Virus record (IMG/VR): IMGVR_UViG_3300030118_003397
Span: 1 to 30,883 of that record
DNA from: a virus
DNA length: 30,883 bases
Direction: 5' to 3' (one strand)
Both the position numbers and the translations under genes were made by a program. Under the pieces are notes generated by a model that saw only the letters and a program-made list of their open reading frames with translations, was not told where the DNA came from and did not search any database. Of the stretch, positions 3,745 through 30,883 are shown piece by piece; position 1 is the stretch's first letter; every line of letters starts with the position of its first letter.

Positions 3745-4065
3745 TCACACGTCGTAGTCTAACACTATCTCTTCACCCTCTTCTATTTTGCGTAGGGTTA
3801 CTAAGTTATAGACTTTATAGTCATCCCAATCTTGAGACAACGCTAAATAACAGTTTGGCTCCTCTGAGTGGTTGATAAAACCACCCAAAGGAGTCCGTAT
3901 GTACCCAGCAATCATAGGCACCTTAATGTGTGTGCTACCTAAATCAAACGCTTCTTCTATGCGTTGCGTAGCAAAAATACCTAACCCATCTATTTCACTT
4001 TCCCCAACCGTTACTTCGTCGGGCAGGGGTTTGTAATAGAACCTGTCGTATCTAAGCCTTGCCAA
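3745..4065 (-). CDS. Minimal SET-domain protein (putative lysine methyltransferase)
   Basis: A protein of about 106 residues consisting of a bare SET domain, which transfers methyl groups from S-adenosylmethionine to protein lysines. Visible motifs: the glycine-rich start DGLGIFATQRI (about 26-36), NHSEEPNC (about 65-72, cofactor site and pseudoknot) and GEEIVLDYDV (97-106) with the expected catalytic tyrosine (about 104). There are no pre-SET or post-SET parts. The size is close to the 119-residue vSET of chlorella virus PBCV-1, which methylates host histone H3. I chose the TTG at 4065 because AGGAG lies five bases upstream; a GTG at 4092 gives nine more residues but no ribosome site. The gene overlaps the one upstream and is flanked on both sides by lysine-rich proteins, its likeliest substrates (inference). 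Confidence 0.8.
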   Translation of the reverse strand: MARLRYDRFYYKPLPDEVTVGESEIDGLGIFATQRIEEAFDLGSTHIKVPMIAGYIRTPLGGFINHSEEPNCYLALSQDWDDYKVYNLVTLRKIEEGEEIVLDYDV

Positions 4066-14643: not shown

Positions 14644-16109
14644 CAGTAATACTCTCTATTCCTTGGCACGTACATATCTTCCTCTTCGTCCCCCTCCAGT
14701 GAGATGAACCCACCTTGACGAAAACGAATCAGAGCCATAGTCATACTGTCTACGAAGTCATCATGGTCGCCATTAGGAAAGGCAGCACATTCTTCAATCA
14801 CTTCGTCTGCAAACTTCTTTTCTGGAGCCCAAACCATTCCAGCTTCAAAGATTGGTGCAACGGTGTGCATTCGGGTCACTTTATCACGACCTTTGGCAGG
14901 AGTATAATTTAACACGGGTATGCCTGTTCTGCGTAATTCGTCGGTCAGCGGGGTACCAGTTGCCTTGGCCTCGATAATAACCATGTCAGGTTCCCAATAA
15001 TCATACTCTTCTAAAGCCACCTCTTTTAATTCTGGAAAGTTATATCGGCCTCGTCGGGCATCAAGCAGGATGATATGGTCTGCTCCCCCCTCTTCTGGTT
15101 GAAATACGCCCCACGTCGTGATTGCTGAATAATCCGCTGTCTCCTTTTTCGAGAACGCTGTATCATACGATTGCATGATGTATTTGACCGGCGGTACATC
15201 TTCCTTCTCCCATGTTTGCCACCACTCACGTTTGACGATTGCACCCTCTGTGGCGGTAGGTTGCTGTTGCCATTGTGCATTCCACTTGGCAACAGGCAGT
15301 GCGGCCTTGACTTTTAACAAGTCATCCTTGTTCCAGAACTCAGGCCACAGTGGTTTGTCCGACGGCATGATTGCAGGGAACTCCACAACCTCCCATTCGT
15401 CAGACATTACGTCGTTGGCCTGGGCTTTCATTAGTTTTCCGGTGAGATCCTTCGTCCCCCACCGCGTCATTACGAGAATAATCGCGCCACCCGGCTGTAA
15501 ACGTTGGCGAGGGCCTGACGTATACCACTCATAAGCGTTGTCAAACGCTCCTTCACTAAGGGCATCTTGTTCCGAATGAGGGTCGTCAATGATAAACAAG
15601 TCCGCACCGCGACCAGTGACCGCTGCACCGACTCCAGCAGCAAAATACTCGCCCCCTGCTTCTGTACCCCAGCGTCCTGCTGCTTTGTCGTCCGCTTTGA
15701 GCTTCGTTTCTGGGAAGATTTCATAATATGCCTCCGTTTCTATTAGATTACGGACCTTACGACCAAATCTGACCGCTAATTCCGTGTTATGCGTTGCTTG
15801 AATGATCTTTAATTTAGGATTTCGCCCCAAAAACCACGCTGGCATGAGGTAAGAAGCGAATTCTGACTTGGAATGACGGGGCGGCATGTTCACAATCAGC
15901 CGTTTTAACTCCCCAGTTGCTATTTTTTCTAGTTTTTCCGCGATTACACGGTGATGTCTGCCCTCTATGAAGTTCTCATAGACGTGATGTACGAAAGGCA
16001 TGAAGTGATTTTGCGCTTTTTCGCGGGTTGCTATCCTGACTTCGGCCTGTTTGAGGGCCAAAATCTCTTTTAGCACCTCATCAGGCAAAGATTCTAGGGT
16101 CGAAGACAT
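14643..16109 (-). CDS. terL: Terminase large subunit (ATPase and nuclease)
   Basis: A 488-residue protein. The ATPase domain has a Walker A variant MPPRHSKSEF (about 75-84), Walker B LFIIDDPHSE (about 171-180) and the coupling motif VMTRWGTKDL (about 213-222). The RNase H-like nuclease has acidic residues at SYDTAFS (Asp about 315), IIEAKATG (Glu about 380) and DHDDFVDSM near the C-terminus. This is the motor that packages DNA into the prohead through the portal and cuts it. The start is the ATG at 16109 sharing a base with the upstream stop; a TTG one codon earlier is possible. Unusually, the small subunit lies about 7 kb away, beyond the early genes. Confidence 0.95.
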   Translation of the reverse strand: MSSTLESLPDEVLKEILALKQAEVRIATREKAQNHFMPFVHHVYENFIEGRHHRVIAEKLEKIATGELKRLIVNMPPRHSKSEFASYLMPAWFLGRNPKLKIIQATHNTELAVRFGRKVRNLIETEAYYEIFPETKLKADDKAAGRWGTEAGGEYFAAGVGAAVTGRGADLFIIDDPHSEQDALSEGAFDNAYEWYTSGPRQRLQPGGAIILVMTRWGTKDLTGKLMKAQANDVMSDEWEVVEFPAIMPSDKPLWPEFWNKDDLLKVKAALPVAKWNAQWQQQPTATEGAIVKREWWQTWEKEDVPPVKYIMQSYDTAFSKKETADYSAITTWGVFQPEEGGADHIILLDARRGRYNFPELKEVALEEYDYWEPDMVIIEAKATGTPLTDELRRTGIPVLNYTPAKGRDKVTRMHTVAPIFEAGMVWAPEKKFADEVIEECAAFPNGDHDDFVDSMTMALIRFRQGGFISLEGDEEEDMYVPRNREYY

Positions 16110-17248
16110 CAACTACGACGCAATGAGCTCAGACCATACGCTGGAGAGAACTGTTGCGGGGCCCGAAAGCTTGGTTGCAACGATACCGGAGCCAAAGTCG
16201 GCAGTCCTGTGTAGGAATATTGCACAGGATCGCGCGGTTGGTAGTTAGCTCCTGTAACAAAAGGTGTCTGCGCGACCGGTTCTTGGGGAGCAGTCATGGC
16301 ACTTTCAGGAATTAGAGGTGGAATAACCGTTTGAGGTTGATTATCGCCTCTCGATTCTCTGTCCTCTTCCTCACGCTGTCTTTGCATCCTAAAAAGATCA
16401 CCAGCCGCCTCTTCTTGGCCCTTGATATCAAACAATCCAACAGAAGAGGGAGTATATACTCTGTTTTCCTGTGGGTTATACACCCCTGTTATCTGACCTT
16501 GGTCATTTGTTTGTAATTGATTACCCGCAAGATTCGCCTGACGAGCAAATTCTTTGTCTCTATTACTAAAATCTTCAATAATAGTTCTAGCTAATCCAAG
16601 CGGCTGTAATAAATTACGAAGACCTACTTCTGCTTCTCCAGGGATCGGTCTTCCTTCTTCTACCGCTTTCCTAATCTCTTCCTGTCTTTCTCTTTCTTTG
16701 TCTTGAACATCAGGTGGCAAGAACTCAGAAAAATCACCAACGTCGCCTCCATCAAAATCAACAGGTGAATCAGGAGCAAAGGTTTCTGGATAATCGTAAA
16801 TAAAATCGGTAGTCGCAGGTCTTACTTCTGTTCTAGGGCCAAATCGAGCTTTAGTCTGATCGGGTTGTTTTAAAAACTGATCTCGAGTAAGAGCATTAGG
16901 ATAACGTGGACCTGTATCAAACCGAGCTTTGTTTTGCGCTAATGCTTTGTTTTGCGCTAATTGTGCAACTCGGTCTATGCTTGCGGCTTCAATGGCTCCT
17001 TGAACTGCCGCACGGTCCGCTAACGCTTGCCTCTGTTGTCTATTGGTCGTTATATCTCGGTCGCCAGTTGCTCGTTGCGCTCGAGCAAAAGACTCATCAT
17101 CACTAAGATCGCGGCCCCTTTCTCTTGCTTCTCTTGCGGCTTTTTCTACCTGAGATTCATAAGCCGGTCTAGTGTCTCCTGAAAGTCTGACTGTATCGTC
17201 AAAGTCACCAGCAGAACCGCCACCTGTACCTTCTGGATCGCCACTCAT
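16109..17248 (-). CDS. Large disordered protein between HlyC-like and terminase genes
   Basis: A 379-residue protein with a Gly/Asp-rich start, a charged region rich in Arg, Gln, Asp and Glu (ERQEEIRKAVEEGRPIPGEA), one more ordered stretch (VGLRNLLQPLGLARTIIEDF), repeats of ALAQNKA, and a Pro/Gln-rich C-terminus (FRAPQQFSPAYGLSSLRRS). It has few hydrophobic residues overall, so it is probably mostly unfolded. ATGA and TGATG overlaps tie it to both neighbours. It could be an ejected virion protein or a scaffold-like factor. I do not recognise a family. Confidence 0.75.
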   Translation of the reverse strand: MSGDPEGTGGGSAGDFDDTVRLSGDTRPAYESQVEKAAREARERGRDLSDDESFARAQRATGDRDITTNRQQRQALADRAAVQGAIEAASIDRVAQLAQNKALAQNKARFDTGPRYPNALTRDQFLKQPDQTKARFGPRTEVRPATTDFIYDYPETFAPDSPVDFDGGDVGDFSEFLPPDVQDKERERQEEIRKAVEEGRPIPGEAEVGLRNLLQPLGLARTIIEDFSNRDKEFARQANLAGNQLQTNDQGQITGVYNPQENRVYTPSSVGLFDIKGQEEAAGDLFRMQRQREEEDRESRGDNQPQTVIPPLIPESAMTAPQEPVAQTPFVTGANYQPRDPVQYSYTGLPTLAPVSLQPSFRAPQQFSPAYGLSSLRRS

Positions 17249-17670
17249 ATCCGTATACTTCCTATATGATTTCTAAGACCCCGGTATATCCTAGCCTTCA
17301 TCCCAGGACCATACCTCTTATTATGCCAGTTCCGCATCACCCGTATAATATGAATACAGTTTCCAAACGGAGCAGCAAAATCTATATACCATAGAGTACC
17401 ATCTTCTCCTTCAAAATCTATCGGTTGCAGTCTCCTGCTCCGAGTCAGGTAACCCTCCTCCGCTTCAGGAGATAAAAACGCATGCGTACTAAATCCAATC
17501 GGATTGGCTAAATCATCATAAGCAACCAACAACTTACCATGGTCCTTGGGCGCAAGAATCAATCTCTCAATATCACGGTCATTGTAAAAACGGTGCGTGT
17601 CCGACTGCGCCATCAAAAACAAAGTGTTCTCCACTAACGGTGCACCTGGAAGGTTCAAATGAATTTGCAT
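17245..17670 (-). CDS. HlyC-like toxin-activating lysine acyltransferase
   Basis: A 141-residue protein from the ATG at 17670. It follows the HlyC pattern: FLMAQSDTHRFYNDRDIERL (candidate catalytic His about 29), LVAYDDLANPIGFSTHAFLS, then SPEAEEGYLTRSRRLQPIDF and DGTLWYIDFAAPFGNCIHII (candidate catalytic Asp). HlyC-type enzymes move fatty acyl groups from acyl-carrier protein to internal lysines of RTX toxins; the usual length is about 170 residues. No RTX toxin or its nonapeptide repeats is seen in the window, so the target must be different or elsewhere. It is the first gene of the leftward virion block. The open frame continues up to 17859, but the upstream part runs into the control region. 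The ribosome site is weak. Confidence 0.75.
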   Translation of the reverse strand: MQIHLNLPGAPLVENTLFLMAQSDTHRFYNDRDIERLILAPKDHGKLLVAYDDLANPIGFSTHAFLSPEAEEGYLTRSRRLQPIDFEGEDGTLWYIDFAAPFGNCIHIIRVMRNWHNKRYGPGMKARIYRGLRNHIGSIRI

Positions 17671-17982
17671 GGTGATTTTTTCTCGGACCAAGGGACTCCG
17701 ACGTGAGTCTACACGACTTTTAAGGGTGGGGGTCGGAACAAAATTCTCGGTCAATGAAATTATTGAAGCAGCCGCATATAGCAGCCATACACAAGCACCG
17801 CCCGCCTCTAGGGGTGACCCCGTCCGAAACGCCACCCGCCACCGTCCGAAACGCCCCAAGTAACCGGCCTTTTTTACACGATATTAGACTAATGTCTAAT
17901 ACATTAATTTACATTAGTCTATAGTATATCAAGTGTAGTTGGCGGGGACTACAAAAAACCCCACACAATAGAGGACGCTATC
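17671..17982. other. Divergent control region, no gene supported
   Basis: This stretch separates the leftward virion block from the rightward early block. The part near 17671-17860 continues the open frame of the HlyC-like gene, but it has no convincing start or protein-like composition. The AT-rich part (17870-17945) carries an inverted repeat and promoter-like words on both strands. GAGGA precedes the early gene at 17983. Confidence 0.6.
17885..17921. promoter_or_regulatory. 11-bp inverted repeat in the divergent promoter region (operator candidate)
   Basis: TAGACTAATGT (17885-17895) and ACATTAGTCTA (17911-17921) are perfect inverted copies 15 bases apart. Just to the right, read on the minus strand, ACACTTGATAT followed by TAGACTAATGTAA is shared, with a two-base spacing change, by the promoter region near 23941-23972 on the plus strand. 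The site could bind a dimeric phage regulator controlling both directions. Confidence 0.6.
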
Positions 17983-18261
17983 ATGTTTGATAAGCAAATA
18001 ATCAAAGAGGCCGTAGGCCGTCGCTTTTTCTCAGTCACTTTCATCAAGAAAGATAATTCACTCCGTAAGATGGTCTGCGTATTACCATCAGCCGACCGAT
18101 TCTTTTCGGGCGGTGAATTACGCGGTAATCGTGAGCGGTTACTGTCAGTAGTTGACATTGACCTACTTCGTAAGGGTGAAGACCCCAAAAAAGCATGGCG
18201 GTCAATCAATCTTGACACCATCGTTGAATTCAACTTCATGGGCCGTAATTGGGTTAACTAA
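17983..18261 (+). CDS. SH3-like beta-barrel protein (WYL_2 / Sm-like type)
   Basis: A 92-residue protein with the pattern GRRFFSVTFIKKDNSLRKMV, a GG-containing middle and a late SINLDTIVEFNFMG. This matches small phage proteins annotated as SH3 beta-barrel fold or WYL_2. The family is thought to bind nucleic acid or regulate transcription, but biochemical proof is scarce. It is the first rightward gene after the divergent control region, preceded by GAGGA, so it is probably expressed immediately early. The CGGGGG hairpin follows its stop closely. Confidence 0.75.
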   Translation: MFDKQIIKEAVGRRFFSVTFIKKDNSLRKMVCVLPSADRFFSGGELRGNRERLLSVVDIDLLRKGEDPKKAWRSINLDTIVEFNFMGRNWVN

Positions 18262-18267
18262 GGGAGA

Positions 18268-18296
18268 CGGGGGGCGGCAACGTCCCCCGATTTTAA
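18268..18296 (+). terminator. GC hairpin with T-rich tail between first and second early genes
   Basis: CGGGGG (18268-18273) pairs with CCCCCG (18284-18289) around the loop GCGGCAACGT, followed by ATTTTAAG and then directly an ATG at 18298. GGGAG lies just before the hairpin. It is similar in layout to the hairpin at 19394-19419. Confidence 0.65.
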
Positions 18297-18297
18297 G

Positions 18298-18549
18298 ATG
18301 ACAGAATATATCGGAACATGCACATATTGGGATAATGACGAGAACGAGTTTGAATTGTCGGTGCGGTTTGAGTTTGAGCAGGACATTGAAGACGGTCACG
18401 TCAGAGCGGAACATTGGGAGTTATTAAACATTGAAGACTATTTCAATGCCCAACAATTAACACTCGACATCTCAGAGGGGTCTGCCGCTTGGGTATTTGC
18501 CGAAGATGTTCTACACGAAATCGACAAAGAAGAAGTAGCTTACTACTAA
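18298..18549 (+). CDS. Small acidic early protein, unknown function
   Basis: An 83-residue acidic protein (TCTYWDNDENEFELSVRFEF; DISEGSAAWVFAEDVLHEID) with alternating beta-type residues near the start. There is no usual ribosome site directly before the ATG. Instead GGGAG lies on the far side of a stable hairpin that ends eight bases upstream. No family recognised; it may be a host-takeover protein, by position only. Confidence 0.7.
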   Translation: MTEYIGTCTYWDNDENEFELSVRFEFEQDIEDGHVRAEHWELLNIEDYFNAQQLTLDISEGSAAWVFAEDVLHEIDKEEVAYY

Positions 18550-18590
18550 CAACAACCGGAGGGGCTATGCCCCTCCATTGGAGGACACAA
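18546..18590 (+). repeat. Intercistronic hairpin repeat, copy 1
   Basis: A segment starting CTAACAACAACC, then the perfect stem GGAGGGGC / GCCCCTCC with loop TAT (18558-18576), then TTGGAGGACACAA and an ATG. A nearly identical segment lies at 18864-18907. The 8-bp stem lacks a long T tract, so it is more likely an RNA stability, processing or translation element than a strong terminator. Confidence 0.8.
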
Positions 18591-18863
18591 ATGGAATGGA
18601 TTAAATGTTCAGATCGTATGCCTACCAATACGAACCAAGGTTATTTGGTTGTGATTAAGAACCATCCAAATGATACAAATCCAAGCGTTTCAGGTGAGTA
18701 CTTCCTATCAGAAGATTACGAAGATAACGAGCATGGAGAAGTAGAACACAATGGGTTTTGTTGGTGTTACGAGGATTATTGCAATAACACTTGCACCGTT
18801 GGGGAAAACGACGCTAGTGAAGTCACGCATTGGATGCCGTACCCAGAACCACCAACCAACTAA
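18591..18863 (+). CDS. DUF551-type protein
   Basis: A 90-residue protein beginning MEWIKCSDRMPTNTNQGYLV and ending THWMPYPEPP. The start W-I---DRMP and end HWMP-P-PP are the signature of DUF551, a short domain frequent in phages and prophages with unknown role. The middle has a Cys/Trp-rich stretch (GFCWCYEDYCNNTC). The start is set by GGAGGACACAA directly before the ATG. It is flanked by the two copies of the hairpin repeat. Confidence 0.85.
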   Translation: MEWIKCSDRMPTNTNQGYLVVIKNHPNDTNPSVSGEYFLSEDYEDNEHGEVEHNGFCWCYEDYCNNTCTVGENDASEVTHWMPYPEPPTN

Positions 18864-18907
18864 CTAACAACAACCGGAGGGGCATAGCCCCTCCTTTGGA
18901 GGACACA
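18864..18907 (+). repeat. Intercistronic hairpin repeat, copy 2
   Basis: It starts at the last base of the DUF551 stop codon region and reads CTAACAACAACC, then GGAGGGGC / GCCCCTCC with loop ATA (18876-18894), then TTTGGAGGACACA and an ATG. It differs from copy 1 mainly in the loop, which is the reverse complement of the first (ATA for TAT), and one base after the stem. Confidence 0.8.
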
Positions 18908-19087
18908 ATGAAAACTTTCTCAATCGCTTTCCTAATCTTCGCAGGACTAATCATGGTTCTTGGTGGAGTCGGATACATCGAGGATAATCCCGTGACGATC
19001 TTACACACACTGATCGGTTTCGGTCTGTCACTGGCGGGGATCGCGCTCTGGATTCTAGGTCTGCTGCTTAGTTCTAGTAGACTATAA
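18908..19087 (+). CDS. Small two-segment membrane protein
   Basis: A 59-residue protein. Segments IAFLIFAGLIMVLGGVGYI and GFGLSLAGIALWILGLLLSS are clear membrane helices with a short polar loop (EDNPVTILHT). GGAGGACACA precedes the ATG. It is the only membrane protein in this early block; superinfection exclusion or membrane takeover are common roles of such early phage proteins, but nothing specific supports one. Confidence 0.75.
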   Translation: MKTFSIAFLIFAGLIMVLGGVGYIEDNPVTILHTLIGFGLSLAGIALWILGLLLSSSRL

Positions 19088-19097
19088 AACCCAGGTT

Positions 19098-19126
19098 GTA
19101 GTGTAGTGTCATGCACACTACACTAC
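19098..19126 (+). terminator. Perfect 12-bp hairpin after the membrane-protein gene
   Basis: GTAGTGTAGTGT (19098-19109) and ACACTACACTAC (19115-19126) enclose the loop CATGC. The arms are themselves built from a repeated GTAGT/GTGT word. It is followed by ATTCTCATTC, which is not a strong T tract, so an operator or RNA-stability role is as likely as termination. Confidence 0.6.
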
Positions 19127-19154
19127 ATTCTCATTCACTAAGGAGGACACCACA

Positions 19155-19385
19155 ATGAATGACCAGTACAGAAAGCCTAATGTCTTTTTATCAGACCAAG
19201 ACATCATCGCATTACAGAACATCATCCATAACGGATGCCATGTCGAGTATGTAGACGTGGTCGGTCATGCTGACATCAGAATGCCTATCGTACATGCTGA
19301 TTCGGAAGAATGGAGCGCGCGGCTGCAAGGCATACTCTTGAGACTAGATGAAGGTCTTGAGCACGTAGACACCATTCACGAATAA
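19155..19385 (+). CDS. Small early protein, unknown function
   Basis: A 76-residue acidic protein (FLSDQDIIALQNIIHNG; HADSEEWSARLQGILLRLDE) with predicted helix-strand-helix. A strong AAGGAGGACACCACA stands before the ATG. No family recognised. It ends just before a terminator hairpin. Confidence 0.7.
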   Translation: MNDQYRKPNVFLSDQDIIALQNIIHNGCHVEYVDVVGHADIRMPIVHADSEEWSARLQGILLRLDEGLEHVDTIHE

Positions 19386-19393
19386 CTGGGAGG

Positions 19394-19419
19394 CGGGGCT
19401 GGCAACAGCCCCGATTTTT
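19394..19419 (+). terminator. Rho-independent terminator directly before an ATG
   Basis: CGGGGCT (19394-19400) and AGCCCCG (19407-19413) pair around GGCAAC, followed by ATTTTTT and immediately an ATG at 19421. GGGAGG lies at the foot of the stem on the 5' side. Confidence 0.75.
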
Positions 19420-19420
19420 T

Positions 19421-19624
19421 ATGCAGATATATCTAATCAAAGTAAACGGCCAGACGTGCGATGTCGGCTTCATCCACGAGTCTGACGATCCTCAAACTGG
19501 GCTGGCTGCCGAAGACGTTATCGCTTTAGAAGATGTCGGGTTATTGCCCAGTGAAGTAGGAATCATTGACCATGACCTACCCAAGGGTATGCTCCTAGAG
19601 TCGCAAGGTCGCAGAGTAAAATAA
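19421..19624 (+). CDS. Small early protein translated behind a hairpin, unknown function
   Basis: A 67-residue protein (MQIYLIKVNGQTCDVGFIHE; EDVGLLPSEVGIIDHDLPKG). It has no ribosome site between the terminator-like hairpin and the ATG; the nearest GGGAGG lies before the hairpin, the same arrangement as at 18298. The protein is acidic with beta-type residues at the start. No family recognised. It is a moderate call because of the unusual start. Confidence 0.6.
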   Translation: MQIYLIKVNGQTCDVGFIHESDDPQTGLAAEDVIALEDVGLLPSEVGIIDHDLPKGMLLESQGRRVK

Positions 19625-19627
19625 AAC

Positions 19628-19658
19628 TTGTGTACTCTTGTGTTTTATGTGGTACACT
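19628..19658 (+). promoter_or_regulatory. Early promoter candidate
   Basis: TACACT (19653-19658) with a preceding TGG makes an extended -10. TTGTGT lies 19 bases upstream, a weak -35. The downstream sequence TACACTTTACTTGTCTTAAA and the following GGAGGACAAA closely match those at 20986-21017. Confidence 0.5.
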
Positions 19659-19688
19659 TTACTTGTCTTAAAACGGAGGACAAAAGAT

Positions 19689-19973
19689 ATGAGTAATCCA
19701 TTTGGTAAAACCCGCGACGCTGAGAAGCCTTATGCAATCTATAAAGGTGCTAATGGTTTTGAATGGCGTATCCTGAAAACCTACAAGAAGCCTGATAATG
19801 AAGATAAAGACCCCTATGCGCGGTGGTTCACATCAGCTACGTCTTATCTCATGCCTGAGGGTGAGTACGAATACGGTGACGTATACCGTGCTGACATTCT
19901 TGATCACGGACGGCTAGTGTACGCAGAGCCTGAGTGGAAAGAACGGTTTAATCTTTTCGGAGATTTGGCATAA
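19689..19973 (+). CDS. Conserved phage protein with SNPFGKTR start
   Basis: A 94-residue protein (MSNPFGKTRDAEKPYAIYKG; FEWRILKTYKKP; YARWFTSATSYL; YEYGDVYRADI). Proteins with this start and the W-R-LKTY and YARWF motifs are widespread in phages of many hosts, including mycobacteriophages, by my memory; no function is known. The start is fixed by CGGAGGACAAAAGAT ahead of the ATG and a promoter-like sequence upstream. Confidence 0.8.
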   Translation: MSNPFGKTRDAEKPYAIYKGANGFEWRILKTYKKPDNEDKDPYARWFTSATSYLMPEGEYEYGDVYRADILDHGRLVYAEPEWKERFNLFGDLA

Positions 19974-19978
19974 TAACG

Positions 19979-20001
19979 GAGGGGCATTCGCCCCTCTTTT
20001 T
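19979..20001 (+). terminator. GC hairpin with T5 tail
   Basis: GAGGGGC (19979-19985) and GCCCCTC (19990-19996) with loop ATTC, followed by TTTTT, then the GGAGGACTAAAA of the next gene. It belongs to the same family as the hairpins at 18558 and 18876. Confidence 0.75.
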
Positions 20002-20013
20002 GGAGGACTAAAA

Positions 20014-20310
20014 ATGGAACAAGCAACAGACAGAGAAATAGGTGGCTCACACTTGCAGGGCTACACTACCTCTACCTTTCAAAACATCATCGACAAACTA
20101 GGTAAGCCACACTCTCAGGGTGACGCTTACAAGACGGACGCTGAGTGGGCTTTCAAGTTTGAAGATGGAACGGTTGCCACGCTTTACAATTGGAAAAATG
20201 GCAAAAACTATTGCGGTGCTAATGGTCTCAACCTTGAGGACATCACTGAGTGGAACATCGGTGGCTTTAGCCCTGATGCAGTTTATAAGATTGAGGAGGC
20301 TTTGAAATGA
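20014..20310 (+). CDS. Conserved early phage protein (FEDGTVATLYNWK motif)
   Basis: A 98-residue protein with TEWNIGGFS near the end and WAFKFEDGTVATLYNWKNGK in the middle. This pair of motifs is found in small phage proteins across many groups; I know no function. The Trp/Tyr-rich core suggests a small beta fold. It ends with an ATGA overlap into the DUF3085 gene, so the two are probably made together. Confidence 0.8.
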   Translation: MEQATDREIGGSHLQGYTTSTFQNIIDKLGKPHSQGDAYKTDAEWAFKFEDGTVATLYNWKNGKNYCGANGLNLEDITEWNIGGFSPDAVYKIEEALK

Positions 20311-20684
20311 CAATGCTAACCTTTAAGAGTAAAGAGTTTCCACGCATGTTGGAGTTTATGCGTAACCATGACCGTAAGATTCCCTACGGTGAAAACACCA
20401 AAGACTTTGGTTTGCACCTCGTCAAGGATGACGGTATCTATCTAATGGCTGGAACCGTCCAAGCTGATTGGATGGAACACCTCAAGAAGTGTCACGTTAT
20501 CTACGCTCAAGGTTTCTCACCGAAGACCAAAGACCTTTGGGAAAAATGTCGTGACGCTGTAGGGGGTGACGATTTCGTTGAATGGATACCGCTCAATAAC
20601 AAGATGGTTAACGTGCTTGCTAGAAGCGGACACATGAAAATAAGACTCACACCAAAAGAAGTTCAGATAAACGTTTACGGATAA
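20307..20684 (+). CDS. DUF3085-like protein
   Basis: A 125-residue protein. The segments VKDDGIYLMAGTVQ, CHVIYAQGFSPKTKDLWE and AVGGDDFVEWIPLN reproduce the pattern I remember for DUF3085, a domain of plasmids and phages with unknown function. It starts four bases before the end of the preceding gene and is the last gene before a strong terminator. Confidence 0.75.
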   Translation: MTMLTFKSKEFPRMLEFMRNHDRKIPYGENTKDFGLHLVKDDGIYLMAGTVQADWMEHLKKCHVIYAQGFSPKTKDLWEKCRDAVGGDDFVEWIPLNNKMVNVLARSGHMKIRLTPKEVQINVYG

Positions 20685-20702
20685 CAGTGTCCTCTGTTAT
20701 GT

Positions 20703-20728
20703 GCCCCACTTCGGTGGGGCTTTTTTTT
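20703..20728 (+). terminator. Strong rho-independent terminator with TTCG loop
   Basis: GCCCCAC (20703-20709) and GTGGGGC (20714-20720) with the very stable TTCG tetraloop, followed by eight T. A near copy lies at 22691-22713. Confidence 0.92.
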
Positions 20729-20802
20729 GCCAACTGGTACGGATCGATCCATTAAATGGCAACGAACTACTGCACCAGTGAACATTTCACACCATATATT
20801 AT

Positions 20803-20884
20803 CGCAGAACCGCAAGACTCGCAGAGCCCGCAGGAGCGCAGACTTTCTATATGAACCCGCGCAGGAGCGCAGACTTTCTATATG
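20803..20884 (+). repeat. CGCA-type repeats, including a 25-base direct repeat
   Basis: Units CGCAGAAC, CGCAAGACT, CGCAGAGCC, CGCAGGAG and CGCAGACT follow one another. The segment from CGCAGGAG to CTATATG (20829-20853) is repeated exactly at 20860-20884. Related units occur at 21624-21652, 22608-22648 and 22741-22755. Confidence 0.75.
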
Positions 20885-20964
20885 TGACAAGAAGCAGGCA
20901 GCTGCGGCTGCAGCTGCGGTTTAGTTAACGACATCCTGGCGAACGGTCAGCTAGAAAAAAGTTA

Positions 20965-20991
20965 CCACTACACTAGTTTATGTGTTACACT
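20965..20991 (+). promoter_or_regulatory. Early promoter candidate
   Basis: The box ACTACACTAGTTT (20967-20979) is shared exactly with the promoter at 21655-21682. It is followed by TGTTACACT, an extended -10 (TACACT 20986-20991). The -35 region is poor. GGAGGACAAA and the ATG at 21020 follow. Confidence 0.55.
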
Positions 20992-21019
20992 TTATGTGTC
21001 TTAAATTGGAGGACAAATA

Positions 21020-21202
21020 ATGGATATTAAAAAAGAGTTGGAAAAAATATCGGGTCTGTTAGCAGATGCCCGTAACAAACTAGACGAGGTTGGTTCTGAA
21101 TTGGACGGCGAAGTTGAAAATCTTGACTATGACGTGACTGATTGGACTAACAGTATTGAGAATGTCGAAACTGAAATTGATACCTATTTGGAGGACAAAT
21201 AA
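21020..21202 (+). CDS. Small coiled-coil early protein
   Basis: A 60-residue acidic protein with heptad-like spacing throughout (IKKELEKISGLLADARNKLD; IENVETEIDTYLED). GGAGGACAAATA precedes the ATG. Its stop shares a base with the next start (TAATG), and the sequence around that stop, GGAGGACAAATAATGGA, repeats its own start region. It may be a small oligomeric inhibitor or adaptor; no family recognised. Confidence 0.75.
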   Translation: MDIKKELEKISGLLADARNKLDEVGSELDGEVENLDYDVTDWTNSIENVETEIDTYLEDK

Positions 21203-21522
21203 TGGAACAGTATACATATGCTTGTGACGGTGGCGCACTAGCCATCAGAACAGAGTCTGCAAAGTTTTTTTATAACAACGGTTATGGTGATGGTGAACAT
21301 GATGTGTTCGTCACCAACGGCATGGAGTTCACTGAAACTCGCGGGCTTACTTTCGTTGACAGTTTTGTGGTCTTTGAAGGTAAAACTGTTGAAGTATTGA
21401 ACTACGATTGTGGCGAAACGGCTTGGATGAAAGTTAACGCAGTATGCACACTAGATGAAGGACATTGGTTTGTATATAGCGATAACGGTACGATGTATTT
21501 AATTAAGGCTAATCCTACGTAA
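21202..21522 (+). CDS. Early protein of unknown function
   Basis: A 106-residue protein, acidic, with many aromatic residues and beta-type alternation (KFFYNNGYGDGEHDVFVTNG; LTFVDSFVVFEGKTVEVLNY). It is translationally coupled to the preceding gene (TAATG, GGAGGACAAA). No membrane segment or known motif. Confidence 0.75.
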   Translation: MEQYTYACDGGALAIRTESAKFFYNNGYGDGEHDVFVTNGMEFTETRGLTFVDSFVVFEGKTVEVLNYDCGETAWMKVNAVCTLDEGHWFVYSDNGTMYLIKANPT

Positions 21523-21536
21523 TACATGGAACAACG

Positions 21537-21553
21537 TGGGGCGTAATGCCCCA
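21537..21553 (+). repeat. GC hairpin after the gene ending at 21522
   Basis: TGGGGC (21537-21542) and GCCCCA (21548-21553) around GTAAT, followed by TTCTTT. It is one more member of the early-region hairpin family. Confidence 0.65.
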
Positions 21554-21575
21554 TTCTTTCTGCAGCAATGCAACG

Positions 21576-21603
21576 AAAGCCCAGGCAATGCCCGGGCTTT
21601 TTC
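21576..21603 (+). terminator. Rho-independent terminator
   Basis: AAAGCCC (21576-21582) pairs with GGGCTTT (21594-21600), extended inside by GGC/GCC around AAT with one mismatch, and is followed by further T residues. Confidence 0.8.
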
Positions 21604-21623
21604 ATATCTCGAAAACATCGGAT

Positions 21624-21652
21624 CGCAAGACGCAGGACCGCAGGACCGCAGA
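21624..21652 (+). repeat. CGCAGGAC tandem units
   Basis: CGCAAGA, CGCAGGAC, CGCAGGAC and CGCAGAG follow each other with a 7-8-base period, ending directly at the -35 of the next promoter. Confidence 0.7.
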
Positions 21653-21654
21653 GT

Positions 21655-21682
21655 TTGACTACACTAGTTTTTGTGATATAAT
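21655..21682 (+). promoter_or_regulatory. Near-consensus sigma70-type promoter
   Basis: TTGACT (21655-21660), a spacer of 16 bases containing ACTAGTTTTTGTG, and TATAAT (21677-21682) preceded by TGA (extended -10). It drives the GP88-like gene at 21713. Confidence 0.85.
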
Positions 21683-21712
21683 ACATTTAGTTTTATTTGG
21701 AGGACTAAAACA

Positions 21713-22315
21713 ATGAAATCTAAAATACTTTCACACCCGTCGAAGATGCCTTGTCCGGCTATATCGCTAGACGCTCGAGCATGCAAAACAGGATCAAAAC
21801 TCGCAGAGATTGAGGGCACAGTGTGCCACGATTGTTATGCGCTCAAGGGTTTTTACCGCATGCCCAACACTAGAAACGCCATGCAGAGACGTATGGATTT
21901 TATGACCAGTTTAGAATTCGTGCCGAAGATGGTTGAGGAGTTGCGCCAGTTTTGCACCAACGGATATTTCCGCTGGTTCGATTCTGGCGACGTGCAAAGC
22001 GTACAAATGGCAACCAATATCTTGGAAGTTTGCCGACAGACTCCAGAGATCAAACATTGGATACCGTCCAAAGAACCTGCCATTTGGAAAGATGCTCTCG
22101 CGCACACCGAACAGCCTGATAATGTTGTTGTCCGCATGAGCGCGACCAAAATCGATTCTGCTGCATCTAATAAATGGGCGCATACTTCTACCGTTCATAA
22201 GGATCGAGACCCATTCGGCCAAGCTTGTCCCGCTAGTTCACAAGGAAACAAGTGTCTCGATTGCCGAAGCTGTTGGGATGCGAACGTGGCGAATGTTTCC
22301 TACAGCTTTCACTGA
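21713..22315 (+). CDS. GP88-like cysteine-rich phage protein
   Basis: A 200-residue protein with the pattern KMPCPAISLDARACKTGSKL, EGTVCHDCYALKGFYRMPN, GYFRWFDSGDVQSVQMATNI, KHWIPSKEPA and the C-terminal QACPASSQGNKCLDCRSCWD. This is the family I know as gene product 88, first named in mycobacteriophages. Its conserved cysteines (about eight) suggest a metal or iron-sulfur cluster. Function is unknown; the layout reminds one of radical-SAM-like proteins, but a CxxxCxxC motif is not present. It has its own near-consensus promoter and a GGAGGACTAAAACA ribosome site, so it is probably well expressed. Confidence 0.85.
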   Translation: MKSKILSHPSKMPCPAISLDARACKTGSKLAEIEGTVCHDCYALKGFYRMPNTRNAMQRRMDFMTSLEFVPKMVEELRQFCTNGYFRWFDSGDVQSVQMATNILEVCRQTPEIKHWIPSKEPAIWKDALAHTEQPDNVVVRMSATKIDSAASNKWAHTSTVHKDRDPFGQACPASSQGNKCLDCRSCWDANVANVSYSFH

Positions 22316-22326
22316 GGAATTACGCG

Positions 22327-22545
22327 ATGAACATGTTACACAAAACACCGGCACAAAATATGAATACTATTTGGAATGCCTTGCACGAATATCGGGAGAG
22401 ATGCATTCCAGAACATGATCCTATTTTCCCAGAGCATGATCACATTTACGATAAAGAATGGGATTCCATATGCGATGCTATGTGGGAAGTATGCGAAGCT
22501 TTAGGCTTACCCACCGGAGCCGATGCCGAGGAATGGCTGGACTAA
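22327..22545 (+). CDS. Small acidic His/Trp-rich protein
   Basis: A 72-residue protein (NTIWNALHEYRERCIPEHDP; PEHDHIYDKEWDSICDAMWE; EALGLPTGADAEEWLD), helical and acidic. GAGGA lies eight bases ahead of the ATG. It is in the same transcript as the GP88-like gene. The HDP/HDH residues could bind metal, but the pattern is not a known motif. Confidence 0.7.
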   Translation: MNMLHKTPAQNMNTIWNALHEYRERCIPEHDPIFPEHDHIYDKEWDSICDAMWEVCEALGLPTGADAEEWLD

Positions 22546-22554
22546 TCCAACCAT

Positions 22555-22571
22555 GGGGGACAATGTCCCCC
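22555..22571 (+). repeat. GC hairpin after the gene ending at 22545
   Basis: GGGGGAC (22555-22561) and GTCCCCC (22565-22571) with the three-base loop AAT. No T tract follows. Confidence 0.7.
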
Positions 22572-22607
22572 ACCCTGGGACTCTGCTGCGAAGATCATAT
22601 ACAAGGG

Positions 22608-22648
22608 CGCAGGGTCGCAAGACTTGACACGCAGGGTCGCAGGACGCA
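22608..22648 (+). repeat. CGCAGGGT units
   Basis: CGCAGGGT, CGCAAGACTTGACA, CGCAGGGT, CGCAGGA and CGCAAAA. It is the same family as at 20803 and 21624. A further pair, CGCAGGGTCGCAGGG, lies at 22741-22755 inside the end of the nuclease gene. Confidence 0.7.
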
Positions 22649-22690
22649 AAATTACTACCAGTTTCTTAGTCCTCCAATACTAAGAGCAAG

Positions 22691-22713
22691 CCCCACTTCG
22701 GTGGGGTTTTTTT
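22691..22713. terminator. Terminator between converging transcripts
   Basis: CCCCAC (22691-22696), TTCG, GTGGGG (22701-22706), then seven T on the plus strand. It nearly repeats the terminator at 20703-20728. Because the nuclease gene converges from the right and ends at 22712, it may act in both directions. Confidence 0.85.
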
Positions 22714-23146
22714 ATAGGGCAAATGCTTGATTAGAAAGGGCGCAGGGTCGCAGGGTTTTGTCCGTTCGATCCCAGATTACTTGAAACACAGAATCAATGT
22801 CCTCGAGCCTATCCCCTTCAGTATGGAACACCCCATCAGAGGCCAAGGTTCTCGCCTCATGGCTCTCAAATAAATATAGGCTACCCGTCCCTTGGTGCTT
22901 GGCTAAGATAAAAGAGAGGCCTCCTGCGTGACTGTGAGAGGTATGCCAAGCGATTTGCTGTGGACTTAATTTCACTTTATTACTTTTGATTACCTTTAGT
23001 TCTATCCAAAACGATATTGATTCCCACACGATATAAAGATCAGGCATCCCTGCTGAGACTCTGTTCTCCAACCTCCAAGCGTAACAATTCCTTGGTAGTC
23101 TCTTGCGAATCGCTGTCCAAAAATTCGCTTCCGGCCCTCGTGACAT
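22712..23146 (-). CDS. VRR-NUC-type nuclease
   Basis: A 144-residue protein starting MSRGPEANFWTAIRKRLPRN. The PD-(D/E)XK core is visible: LENRVSAGMPDLYIV (the VSAGMPD motif with Asp about 36), FWIELKV (Glu49 and Lys51) and LSPQQIAWHTSH, followed by GGLSFILAKHQGTGSLYLFE. VRR-NUC proteins are small nucleases, often linked to recombination or Holliday-junction processing; phage versions often stand beside terminase genes. I prefer the ATG at 23146 (GGGAG upstream) to 23173. The gene overlaps the terminase small subunit by 107 bases in another frame. Its last residues are encoded by CGCAGGGT repeat units. Confidence 0.85.
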   Translation of the reverse strand: MSRGPEANFWTAIRKRLPRNCYAWRLENRVSAGMPDLYIVWESISFWIELKVIKSNKVKLSPQQIAWHTSHSHAGGLSFILAKHQGTGSLYLFESHEARTLASDGVFHTEGDRLEDIDSVFQVIWDRTDKTLRPCALSNQAFAL

Positions 23147-23609
23147 CTTTGAATTCTCCCTCAATGAATGCATGCGGATATCTTTTCTGAAGATCAGCTA
23201 GTCGTCCTATGATTTCCTCTCTCGTCATATCATCTATTCGGTTGACTGTTTCTCTTCTGTCGATTGTCAATCCACCCAACGCGGATCGAATTTTTTCTGC
23301 ATTGATTGCCGCTGAATACTGACCAACGTCCTCCGCACCTTTTGACAACTCAGATAGTCTTTTCATTTGACCAATCAAAGTCACTCCGTACTGGCGTTCT
23401 CTTTCCTCCCTTAACTCTTTTATGTGGTCTACTACGTGAGGGTAATCCTTTCCATTTAACAAAACAGAGGCTGTTTTCGGAGCCACATTCACAGAAAATC
23501 CTGCCTTCCTCGCACACTCTGCATTTGAATAGATACCCTCAACAATCAGTTTACAAAACTCTCTCTGACGATTTGTCAGCTTGCGTTCTGTCGTAACACT
23601 CTTCGACAT
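23040..23609 (-). CDS. terS: Terminase small subunit
   Basis: A 189-residue protein with an N-terminal helix-turn-helix region (LTNRQREFCKLIVEGIYSNA, then ECARKAGFSVNVAPKTASVL) followed by NGKDYPHVVDHIKELREERE and GQYSAAINAEKIRSALGGLT. This is the typical pattern of Terminase_2-type small subunits, which bind the packaging site and feed DNA to the large subunit. AAGGAAAGG precedes the ATG. The last 35 residues or so overlap the nuclease gene. The separation from the large subunit by about 7 kb of oppositely oriented early genes is unusual. Confidence 0.85.
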   Translation of the reverse strand: MSKSVTTERKLTNRQREFCKLIVEGIYSNAECARKAGFSVNVAPKTASVLLNGKDYPHVVDHIKELREERERQYGVTLIGQMKRLSELSKGAEDVGQYSAAINAEKIRSALGGLTIDRRETVNRIDDMTREEIIGRLADLQKRYPHAFIEGEFKDVTRAGSEFLDSDSQETTKELLRLEVGEQSLSRDA

Positions 23610-23739
23610 ACCTTTCCTTATAAGGGTTTACTAGCGATTTAATGATACAAACCTGGTTCATTTCGGTCAAAAAACCAACCGTTTTGTTGCATAAATTTTG
23701 GACAGTGATTTTAAAACCATGGTCATTGAGCCAAGAAAC

Positions 23740-23914
23740 GTTACGGATGTTACGAAAATCAATCAAAACGTTACGAGTTGAATTTTTTTTTCTCCAATAT
23801 TTTCAGTCATTTATTTTAATCCGTAACGTCCGTAACGCTCGTAACGCCTCATTTCAAAAAAAAAAATAAATTTTTTCTCCATCTCGCTGACAGACCTTTT
23901 ATACAAATGTTACG
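23740..23914. repeat. GTTACG repeat cluster (iteron or operator candidate)
   Basis: GTTACG occurs on the plus strand at 23740-23745, 23749-23754, 23770-23775 and 23909-23914, and on the minus strand at 23822-23827, 23831-23836 and 23840-23845, the last three with an exact nine-base period. An eighth copy lies at 23592-23597 (minus) inside the terminase small subunit start. A/T runs (about 23781-23792 and 23855-23876) lie within the cluster. Confidence 0.75.
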
Positions 23915-23943
23915 AGTGCCGTGGACATAGTACACAGAAACAC

Positions 23944-23972
23944 TTGATATGTTTTTTAGACTAGTGTAATGT
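23944..23972 (+). promoter_or_regulatory. Sigma70-type promoter for the 24-27 kb genes
   Basis: TTGATA (23944-23949), a 17-base spacer containing TAGACTAGTG, and TAATGT (23967-23972). The words ACACTTGATAT and TAGACTARTGT are shared with the divergent control region near 17890-17935 on the opposite strand. GGAGGACGAGTA and the ATG at 24005 follow. Confidence 0.7.
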
Positions 23973-24004
23973 CACTACTTCATTAATCATTTGGAGGACG
24001 AGTA

Positions 24005-24397
24005 ATGGTAAACCAAACCCAAGCCCCTAGGTACAGAGTTGAAGTGTCTGTCTGTGTATCATCAGCGGAGCCATCAAGAGAACTGAACTGGCCTGTTGAC
24101 ACGATGGGCGAAGCCAAGGCTTTCATCGAAGGTTACAAGGAGGCCGATAGATCTCACATTGTGAGTTCGCTTACATATTCATTTAAGGTCATAGAAATCA
24201 GGGACGTTGTCGCTGTTGTTTCTATTCATACGAAATCTGACGGTGATCGTGATGTCTGTTCACACACCTCAGAGGAAGAAGCAGTTAAACACTTGGAATA
24301 TCTCAAGTCAGAATGTGGGTTATTCAACGATGACCTTGACGATTATGATTGGCATTACGTAACCATAAAAACGGAGCATGAGGTAGAGATCAAATGA
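24005..24397 (+). CDS. Early protein of unknown function, 130 residues
   Basis: The protein has a beta-rich N-terminus (YRVEVSVCVSSAEPSRELNW), a helix with EAKAFIEGYKEADRSH, and an acidic C-terminus (LFNDDLDDYDWHYVTIKTEH). It starts with a good GGAGGACGAGTA site and overlaps the next gene by ATGA. No family recognised. Confidence 0.75.
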   Translation: MVNQTQAPRYRVEVSVCVSSAEPSRELNWPVDTMGEAKAFIEGYKEADRSHIVSSLTYSFKVIEIRDVVAVVSIHTKSDGDRDVCSHTSEEEAVKHLEYLKSECGLFNDDLDDYDWHYVTIKTEHEVEIK

Positions 24398-24645
24398 TTA
24401 AGAGAATGAAAGCGATCCACACTGAAGAGATTGATCATGTGGATTATCAGCATAAGTTGGAAAAGTCGTATGAGATTTACTACGAAGCAGACGAAGAGAC
24501 CGGAGCCGTTCTGAACATTACTGAGATCATTGAACTGCCACGTCAGACTTTTGACGAGGTCAAATATGACTCACTGCTTTGGCAACATCTTGTTAAGACT
24601 TTTGAGCCAGATGGTTTTGAAAAAGAAGAGGAACAAGAACTGTGA
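24394..24645 (+). CDS. Small acidic protein, unknown function
   Basis: An 83-residue protein (MIKRMKAIHTEEIDHVDYQH; GAVLNITEIIELPRQTFDEV), ending in an acidic tail (EKEEEQEL). Four-base and one-base overlaps join it to its neighbours. Nothing identifies a function. Confidence 0.7.
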   Translation: MIKRMKAIHTEEIDHVDYQHKLEKSYEIYYEADEETGAVLNITEIIELPRQTFDEVKYDSLLWQHLVKTFEPDGFEKEEEQEL

Positions 24646-24884
24646 TGTACGTCAGAGAATTTTGCTTTAACCCACGGCTACATGAAAGCATCACCTCGCA
24701 TGTCAGAGAGAACACACTGACGCATGACATGCGATTTGACGAGGCTTTATCCATCATTGAAAAACTGAAGGAAAAGTCAAACGAGGAATTGGGCGCGATG
24801 GTACGCGAATGGTTGGAGCATCCAGACGTTCAGAACTACCCACGCGATTTCACTGAGTGTGTTAACGAGGTCACCATCGAATGA
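24645..24884 (+). CDS. Small helical protein, unknown function
   Basis: A 79-residue protein (MYVREFCFNPRLHESITSHV; FDEALSIIEKLKEKSNEELG). The ATG at 24645 shares a base with the upstream stop; a GTG one codon earlier is possible. The central helix is amphipathic. It overlaps the next small gene by ATGA. Confidence 0.7.
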   Translation: MYVREFCFNPRLHESITSHVRENTLTHDMRFDEALSIIEKLKEKSNEELGAMVREWLEHPDVQNYPRDFTECVNEVTIE

Positions 24885-24997
24885 CCTTTTTTGATACGGC
24901 CACGTACTACCTGATCATGTCCATGGTCGGGTGGTCACTGGTCATCGTACAGATCACGTTTGTGATTTGGTTCTATAAAAGTTGGAGGAAGAAATGA
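24881..24997 (+). CDS. 38-residue membrane peptide
   Basis: It reads MTFFDTATYYLIMSMVGWSL, then VIVQITFVIWFYKSWRKK and a TGA. It is one membrane helix with a basic end, so the C-terminus should lie in the cytoplasm. It is tightly coupled on both sides (ATGA overlaps), which supports it as a gene despite its size. Confidence 0.65.
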   Translation: MTFFDTATYYLIMSMVGWSLVIVQITFVIWFYKSWRKK

Positions 24998-25170
24998 GAG
25001 AAACAATAGAGAAAATTGATAAAGCGTATCAGGGTTTTTTAACTCAACGCGGTCTCCCGCAAATGTGTGCCTACGAATTAATATCTGAGGATTTTTACGA
25101 CGATTACGAACGGCTCGTGATCACCAAGTTTATCGAACTGTATGAAGCGATTGATTCAGAGAAGAAGTGA
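24994..25170 (+). CDS. Small acidic helical protein
   Basis: A 58-residue protein (MRETIEKIDKAYQGFLTQRG; EDFYDDYERLVITKFIELYE). GGAGG lies five bases before the ATG; a TTG start at 24982 is less likely. It precedes the DNA methyltransferase and shares a base with its ATG (TGATG). Confidence 0.7.
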   Translation: MRETIEKIDKAYQGFLTQRGLPQMCAYELISEDFYDDYERLVITKFIELYEAIDSEKK

Positions 25171-30026: not shown

Positions 30027-30883
30027 ATGAGTAAAGAAGTAGCAAATACAAAAGAAGCATTGCCAGTGGTGTCCACGGTGTTTGATCAACTTATCGAGGA
30101 AGAAGATCTAGGTCTAGACTTCAAGATAGACGAGTTAAAAATACCGTACATAGGTCAAGTGCAAATGGCCAGTAAATGTTTAATCAAGAAAAACGAAAGA
30201 TACATTGAAGGCATAGAGCTTGGTGACATTTACAACAATATTACTGGACAATTTTGGAAAGGTGACGAGGGAATCAAATTCGTTGTCTGTGCTCGAGAGC
30301 GTGTATATTTGGTAAAAAACACATCACCAGAAGGTGGAACATTAGAGCAGCTACCAGAAACTGACGAGCGTGTCAGAAAATTAAAAAGCATGGGACCTAG
30401 GGGTGGCAATCAAATGCCATTGACTGAGGAGACAGAGTTATGCAAGACAGATCGTTTCTACGTTTTGATATTAGATGAAAGCGGTGCTCGTATCCCAGGG
30501 CTTTTAGAGTGTAGTAAGTCAAAACTGGCCGCCTCTGAGCAAACGATGAGTATCATGGCTAATTTAGCAAAGCACAAACGTGAGTGGACAGATGAAGAAA
30601 TTTCGTTTGCCAAGAAACATGGTAAGAAAATTGACAAAGGTCAAAAGCTCACACCAGCGATGTGGACATCTGTCTGGCATTACACATCTGTAGAAGCAGT
30701 AAATAAAGACGGACGACCATATCAAAACTACAAAGTAAAATTCGATAGTCATATCCACATAACAGAGGAAAATACAGGACTTCTTAATGAGATTAAAGAG
30801 TTTGCATCCTCTGTGGTTTCTGGAGATGTTTCTTTAGCTGAAGATAATCCGACTGAAGATTCTTTACGAGAAGAGCCTGAGCA
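30027..30883 (+). CDS. Phage protein of unknown function, probable DNA-replication module (cut at right edge)
   Basis: The frame is open from the ATG at 30027 to the window end, 285 residues so far. The segments IPYIGQVQMASKCLIKKNER, YIEGIELGDIYNNITGQFWK and IKFVVCARERVYLV form a pattern I know from phage proteins next to replication genes, sometimes discussed as single-stranded-DNA-binding-like, but I cannot confirm this. An acidic tail begins at the end (SLAEDNPTEDSLREEPE), a feature also of SSB proteins. GAGGAAATAAAA precedes the ATG. Confidence 0.7.
   Translation, partial: MSKEVANTKEALPVVSTVFDQLIEEEDLGLDFKIDELKIPYIGQVQMASKCLIKKNERYIEGIELGDIYNNITGQFWKGDEGIKFVVCARERVYLVKNTSPEGGTLEQLPETDERVRKLKSMGPRGGNQMPLTEETELCKTDRFYVLILDESGARIPGLLECSKSKLAASEQTMSIMANLAKHKREWTDEEISFAKKHGKKIDKGQKLTPAMWTSVWHYTSVEAVNKDGRPYQNYKVKFDSHIHITEENTGLLNEIKEFASSVVSGDVSLAEDNPTEDSLREEPE

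Follow-up and report, generated by a model that had tools for sequence, protein, structure and literature searches.

Candidate split ribosome sites and gene-end hairpins at the small-gene junctions of an aquatic phage

Setting and hairpin inventory

The stretch of DNA analyzed here (the window) is the IMG/VR virus record IMGVR_UViG_3300030118_003397 itself, 30,883 bases in length, and our subject is the set of short GC-rich hairpins that lie between its small genes at 17870-22600. The window encodes a large subunit terminase (TerL), a portal protein, and a helicase. Its nearest named TerL proteins (60 to 63%) are those of phage 023Pt_psg01, Pelagibacter phage HTVC027P, and lake phage DSL-LC04, the last of which was assigned by its authors to Pseudomonadota hosts (PMC10611076). 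These relatives point to phages of Pseudomonadota, and the window phage is an aquatic, podovirus-like member of a little-known phage family. A near-DNA search of a phage collection with window positions 15000-25000 gave no match. Fifteen close relatives were retrieved that cover the junctions mostly at about 80 to 95% identity, and a sister lineage stands at 77 to 80% in TerL, 62% in the portal protein, and mostly 63 to 71% in TerS (related or matching sequences are designated by L numbers). Small genes follow one another throughout this region in the window and its relatives, and which genes are present differs from phage to phage; their position and small size suggest that they may be early genes. 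A search of 17800-22800 against Rfam returned no RNA family match reaching the gathering score.

Perfect stems lie at 18558-18576, 18876-18894, 19394-19413, 19979-19996, 20703-20720, 21537-21553, and 22554-22572. The region holds seven perfect stems of at least 7 bp with at least 6 GC pairs, versus a mean of 0.08 and a maximum of 1 in 100 dinucleotide shuffles. The listed stems, those at 18268 and 22690, and the class B sites, their ORFs, and the DUF551-like gene described below are on the + strand. The stem at 18268-18289 has 9 bp, one of them G-U. A prior sequence-only reading had proposed that 18268-22571 carries a family of uniform GC hairpins between nearly all early genes, most of them without a terminator T tract and directly before a ribosome site, forming an array of RNA elements (for instance processing, stability, or attenuation sites) that would set the amount of each small protein. 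The short stems at small-gene junctions are real, but the uniformity is not, as stem and loop sequences vary by junction. Every hairpin of the region is intergenic, as had been claimed, but none occurs at the two overlapping gene junctions (20307-20310 and 21202) or in the spacers 19624-19689 and 22315-22327. A ribosome site (GGAGGAC) directly follows the stem at 18558, 18876, and 19979 only, and not at 18268 and 19394.

The hairpins are not one kind. We distinguish gene-end hairpins (class A), split ribosome sites (class B), and ordinary terminators (class C); the idea of RNA elements is backed by covariation, but there is no single array of a single element, ordinary terminators had been lumped in, and the clearest subclass, in which the hairpin stands between the Shine-Dalgarno sequence (SD) and the AUG, had been overlooked. 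Our favored reading, which we consider rather probable, is that the hairpins at 18268 and 19394 belong to split ribosome sites, that those at 18558, 18876, 19979, and 22554 are gene-end hairpins, and that these units border exchangeable small-gene cassettes.

Probable split ribosome sites at 18268 and 19394

At both class B junctions the SD lies 5' of the hairpin and the ATG 7 to 8 nt past the stem, and no SD-like sequence is found between stem and ATG. The first site (18262-18300), which follows a TAA stop codon, comprises GGGAGA, the hairpin at 18268-18289 (CGGGGGGCG-gcaa-CGTCCCCCG), the spacer ATTTTAAG, and an ATG at 18298; the second (19387-19423) comprises TGGGAGG, the hairpin at 19394-19413 (CGGGGCTG-gcaa-CAGCCCCG), the spacer ATTTTTT, and an ATG at 19421. 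In this lineage, SD and AUG are 27 to 31 nt apart when the RNA is unfolded but 7 to 9 nt apart when it is folded (31 or 29 becoming 9, and 27 becoming 7). The hairpin, with 8 to 9 bp and a GNRA loop, would form part of a split ribosome binding site together with the SD before it and the short U-rich spacer and AUG behind it; its folding would loop out about 20 nt and place the SD 7 to 9 nt from the AUG, and ribosomes would initiate through the folded site. Anatomy, covariation, coding selection, spacing, and gene turnover can be read from the sequence itself. The case for structure and arrangement is strong, and our confidence that these elements function as split sites is moderate.

Behind the first site lies an 83-amino-acid (aa) open reading frame (ORF) without a family match (18298-18549), which is under purifying selection among relatives (dS 0.54 with dN 0.07; dS 0.70 with dN 0.03). 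Given this selection, and because several alleles contain no internal Met, the real gene most likely begins at the ATG at 18298. The evidence for the 67-aa ORF behind the second site (19421-19624) as a real gene is weak, as a search for relatives found only contig L014, at 95%, leaving two near-identical sequences.

Covariation of the stems marks these elements as RNA. The flanks of the 18268 stem are nearly constant, and the stem itself occurs as CGGGGAGTG/CACTCCCCG, CGGGGCTG/CAGCCCCG, CGGGGGCA/TGCCCCCG, and CGGGGGACG/CGTCCCCCG. Across 11 distinct sequences, this class is 100% paired with four of nine pairs changed on both sides, a score reached by 0 of 500 shuffles, in a model-based alignment that is biased toward pairing because the structure was used to fit it; on visual inspection, these changes are also apparent in a MAFFT alignment. 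Pairing drops to 40 to 55% when the partner is slid by 1 to 3 columns. A model alignment of 25 distinct class B sequences confirms the result, with all paired and 27 both-side-changed cells versus 7.7 in shuffles, although the sequences are related within each lineage and the cells do not count as independent events. The stem at 22554 likewise covaries among relatives. The covariation check that the sequence-only reading had named for its stems has come out in their favor: stems that alter their sequence yet stay paired across relatives act as RNA.

Class B occurs in this phage family and the sister lineage. The pattern SD plus CGGGG..CCCCG plus ATTTT matched 49 viral stretches, and the matches outside this lineage include the sister lineage, where the same layout precedes different small ORFs. 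One unrelated repeated sequence also matched (L049, L062, L066, L068, L070, and L083), without an ATG at class B distance. Among bacteria and archaea (257 Gb of genome sequence) it had 9 matches, none with the stem-and-ATG layout. A stem-free pattern (GGAGGC N14-22 GATTTTTTATG) found 41 viral loci: all 11 in this phage family combine an 8- to 9-bp stem with an ORF of 60 aa or more, and the 30 elsewhere have stems of at most 4 bp. A strict scan of 453 kb returned these class B junctions only, plus one chance match, and a looser geometric scan, run on 481 kb from the family and 648 kb of controls, returned 25 distinct versions in the former and 2 unlike matches in the latter. A search with the R1 model in the distant relatives L016-L024, L035, L036, L038, and L043-L045 gave no match, and these relatives lack a dense hairpin array.

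In all 25 versions (this family plus the sister lineage) the ATG is 7 to 9 nt from the stem, and in 24 of them an A stands directly 3' of the stem. The versions precede several different small genes, whose unrelatedness was judged by eye and not by an exhaustive test, and purifying selection acts, in each of the two lineages, on the ones that were tested; in the sister lineage this applies to two ORF families (e.g., dS 1.26 with dN 0.14; dS 1.01 with dN 0.04). A variant with a split-site layout and a different stem (GAGGAGC-GGCGCCCA-gcaa-TGGGCGCC-TTTTGATT-ATG) occurs in L065 at 3776-3795 on the reverse strand of the locus, where it precedes a 70-aa ORF and adjoins an ordinary class B element.

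Gene-end hairpins, terminators, and cassette borders

The class A stems stand 5 to 12 nt past a stop codon and before a GGAGGAC site. They are found at 18558-18576 (GGAGGGGC-tat-GCCCCTCC, 8 nt past the stop, before TTGGAGGACA), at 18876-18894 (GGAGGGGC-ata-GCCCCTCC, 12 nt past the stop, before TTTGGAGGACA), and at 19979-19996 (GAGGGGC-attc-GCCCCTC, then TTTTT and GGAGGAC). A similar, covarying gene-end hairpin, likewise within 5 to 12 nt of a stop, lies at 22554-22572 (TGGGGGAC-aat-GTCCCCCA), and a short stem (TGGGGC-gtaat-GCCCCA) lies at 21537-21553, 14 nt past a stop. Class C consists of the intrinsic terminators at 20703-20720 (GCCCCAC-ttcg-GTGGGGC followed by T8) and 22690-22707 (a TTCG loop and a T run), in which a GC stem is joined to a T-tract. 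More broadly, 38 of 43 distinct hairpins of this lineage start 2 to 11 nt past a stop codon, in a count limited to hairpins within 40 nt of a stop, and GNRA and UNCG prevail among their 4-nt loops. Such loops are especially stable as RNA on the + strand.

U-tract scores are graded: 20703 and 22690 rank as strong and 19394 and 19979 as moderate, whereas the tracts at 18268 (near zero) and at 18558 and 18876 (negative) are weak. Alleles of one junction have similar terminator scores. The prior statement that most hairpins lack the T tract of a terminator thus applies to 22554, which has none, and to 18558 and 18876, with 2 to 3 T, but not to the graded series as a whole. The hairpins at 18558, 18876, 19979, and 22554 would most likely protect or define the 3' end of the frame that precedes them, probably as barriers to 3' exonucleases, and weak or partial termination would occur where a U-tract follows.

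Between the two near-identical hairpin-plus-SD copies at 18558 and 18876 lies a DUF551-like gene of 90 aa (18591-18863), which is absent in L014. The single copy remaining there is a chimera that joins the left half of one window copy to the right half of the other. This arrangement speaks for recombination at the hairpin-plus-SD copies, through which the gene may have been exchanged or lost, and such units would mark the borders of exchangeable small-gene cassettes.

Several other features of the region were seen. A small gene at 22327-22545, lying exactly between the stop at 22315 and the 22554 hairpin, is present in the window, in L004, and seemingly in L002, L003, and L013 and is absent in others. 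A 13-bp inverted repeat without a T run (TGTAGTGTAGTGT-catgc-ACACTACACTACA) follows a stop codon at 19097-19127 and is retained in L003, L005, and L014 with a one-sided change. Hairpins with the TAA stop of the upstream gene in their loop occur in L004 (2118-2132), L007 (3274-3300), L010 (1094-1120), and L014 (7367-7382), those of L007 and L010 being the same hairpin after the same gene family at different positions. Promoter-like blocks are repeated at 19625-19690, 20955-21020, and 21655-21715 (TTGACT-16-TATAAT at 21655) and end in GGAGGAC and a start codon. Six copies of the repeat GCAGG[AG]NCGCAG, on the + strand only (20830, 20861, 21632, 21640, 22631, and 22742), for the most part occupy the spacers that separate terminators from promoter-like blocks, and related tracts occur in sister contigs.

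Comparison with known systems

In T4 genes 25 and 38, a hairpin cuts the SD-AUG spacing from 27 to 11 nt and from 22 to 5 nt, respectively, with reporter, mutational, and probing support (PMC3014915); that review credits these split ("accommodated") sites to Nivinskas 1999 and Malys & Nivinskas 2009. Class B is similar in that a hairpin conserved among near relatives would bring a distant SD and AUG (22 and 27 nt in T4, 27 to 31 nt here) to within 5 to 11 nt (here 7 to 9 nt), and the marks of such a site, namely, an SD on the 5' side only, a working spacing once folded, and a conserved structure, are all present at 18268 and 19394. It differs in occurring in another phage group, before several small genes rather than single genes, and directly after the upstream stop; it also has one layout (GGAGR-CGGGG..CCCCG-ATTTT..ATG) with stem variants.

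The promoter-early stem-loop (PeSL) cassettes described in T4-type phages (Arbiol 2010 and Comeau 2014, as cited in PMC4503421 and PMC3950731), with a similar motif in the archaeal HGTV-1, are the nearest parallel for cassette exchange. Both systems have stem-loops repeated between small, rapidly exchanged genes, and a terminator followed by a promoter-like block is found here at 20703 and about 21580. The defining pair of early promoter and stem-loop is nonetheless not the rule in our region, where promoter-like blocks follow some stems but most class A and B junctions have none; class B also couples the stem to a ribosome site, and compensatory change keeps the stems.

The SAS/ESAS repeats of cluster K mycobacteriophages are 17-bp imperfect repeats for which the authors found little support for RNA pairing (PMC3203893). 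They resemble the present elements in that a repeat with an SD core immediately precedes the start of many small genes, in about half of the cases with an inverted repeat upstream, but the pairing here is kept by covariation. The 13-bp SAS motif GGGATAGGAGCCC is absent from the region; its single match in the window, which has 2 mismatches, is at 30484, and chance predicts 0.43. Intrinsic terminators, finally, share the GC stem and T-tract with 20703, 22690, and the stem near 21580 but not with 18558, 18876, and 22554, which lack the T-tract.

Alternative explanations

Beyond the relatedness of the class B sequences, several observations weigh against our reading. L007, L009, and L028 retain the 18268 hairpin though an SD belonging to the following gene lies beyond it, from which it follows that the hairpin is not only a split ribosome site and probably serves another purpose as well. 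Isolated folds leave the SD partly paired, with unpaired probabilities of 0.37 to 0.70 for 18268 alleles and 0.02 to 0.19 for the two 19394 alleles. The class B tail ATTTTTT has a modest terminator score (d of +14 at 19394). Covariation at 19979 is weaker, depending on a single pair with changes on both sides, and the present data do not separate the class A function from attenuation.

The best of the alternatives, though a doubtful one, is that the hairpins serve to stabilize each upstream frame, either as processing sites or by blocking 3' exonucleases, with the position of the SD at 18268 and 19394 a by-product. The clustering just past stop codons, the GNRA and UNCG loops, the conservation of 22554 without a T run, and the retention of the 18268 stem before genes with their own SD all fit this idea, which, however, leaves unexplained the constant SD and the 7 to 9 nt to the ATG that class B maintains in two lineages and before several genes. 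Processing by RNase III in particular seems unlikely because of stem length, 7- to 9-bp stems looking too short for classical sites of that enzyme.

We regard as unlikely the proposal that every hairpin is an intrinsic terminator or attenuator, with strength graded from one to the next, and that each releases some fraction of RNA polymerase, producing a stepwise fall in expression along the operon, with the class B SD incidental. The scores are indeed graded by junction and alike among the alleles of each, 20703 and 22690 are strong terminators, class B tails run from ATTTT to ATTTTTT, and all 19979 alleles are followed by T runs. Yet the stems at 18558, 18876, and 22554 are kept in relatives nearly without a T run, the A that follows almost every class B stem weakens the U-tract while the ATG keeps its distance, and the class B ORFs would be left without a usable ribosome site. 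No more probable, in our estimate, is a combined version in which a portable terminator-like hairpin with a very stable loop doubles as a ribosome site, its U-run attenuating transcription and its stem building the start site of the next small gene in read-through mRNA, and travels with the cassettes; if this were true, one element would set two layers of expression.

A role of the stems as DNA, whether as recombination sites or as operators aiding cassette exchange (compare the role proposed for PeSL), seems very improbable. High gene turnover between stems, the L014 chimera, and the PeSL parallel favor it, but both stem arms change together at orthologous junctions, as for RNA pairing and not for recognized DNA, the loops are RNA tetraloops on one strand only, and recombination at repeats can be a side effect. 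For class B, the joint change of both arms led us to reject the operator or DNA-binding reading.

Least credible is a ribosome-controlled switch in class A, whereby the stem would be melted by a ribosome standing at the stop codon before it, and the freed CCUCC would hide the downstream GGAGG: in constrained folds SD access at 19979 falls from 0.64 to 0.15 in the window and from 0.69 to 0.02 in L001 and L004, but only from 0.78 to 0.72 in L003, the SD at 18558 is closed already in both states, the SD is more distant in the alleles of L005 and L010, and this inconsistency among alleles led us to reject the model.

Implications

The review cited above describes split ribosome sites in two genes of T4, and here one phage family would contribute 25 versions. 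Such sites matter for annotation, since gene finders that need an SD near the AUG can misplace class B starts; a simple gene caller placed the start in L001, and some starts in the sister lineage, inside the stem. For the family itself, the arrangement suggests that small-gene cassettes may be exchanged at structured RNA borders. The 25 natural versions, in which pairing and spacing are kept, would amount to a natural experiment on how structure between SD and AUG tunes initiation.

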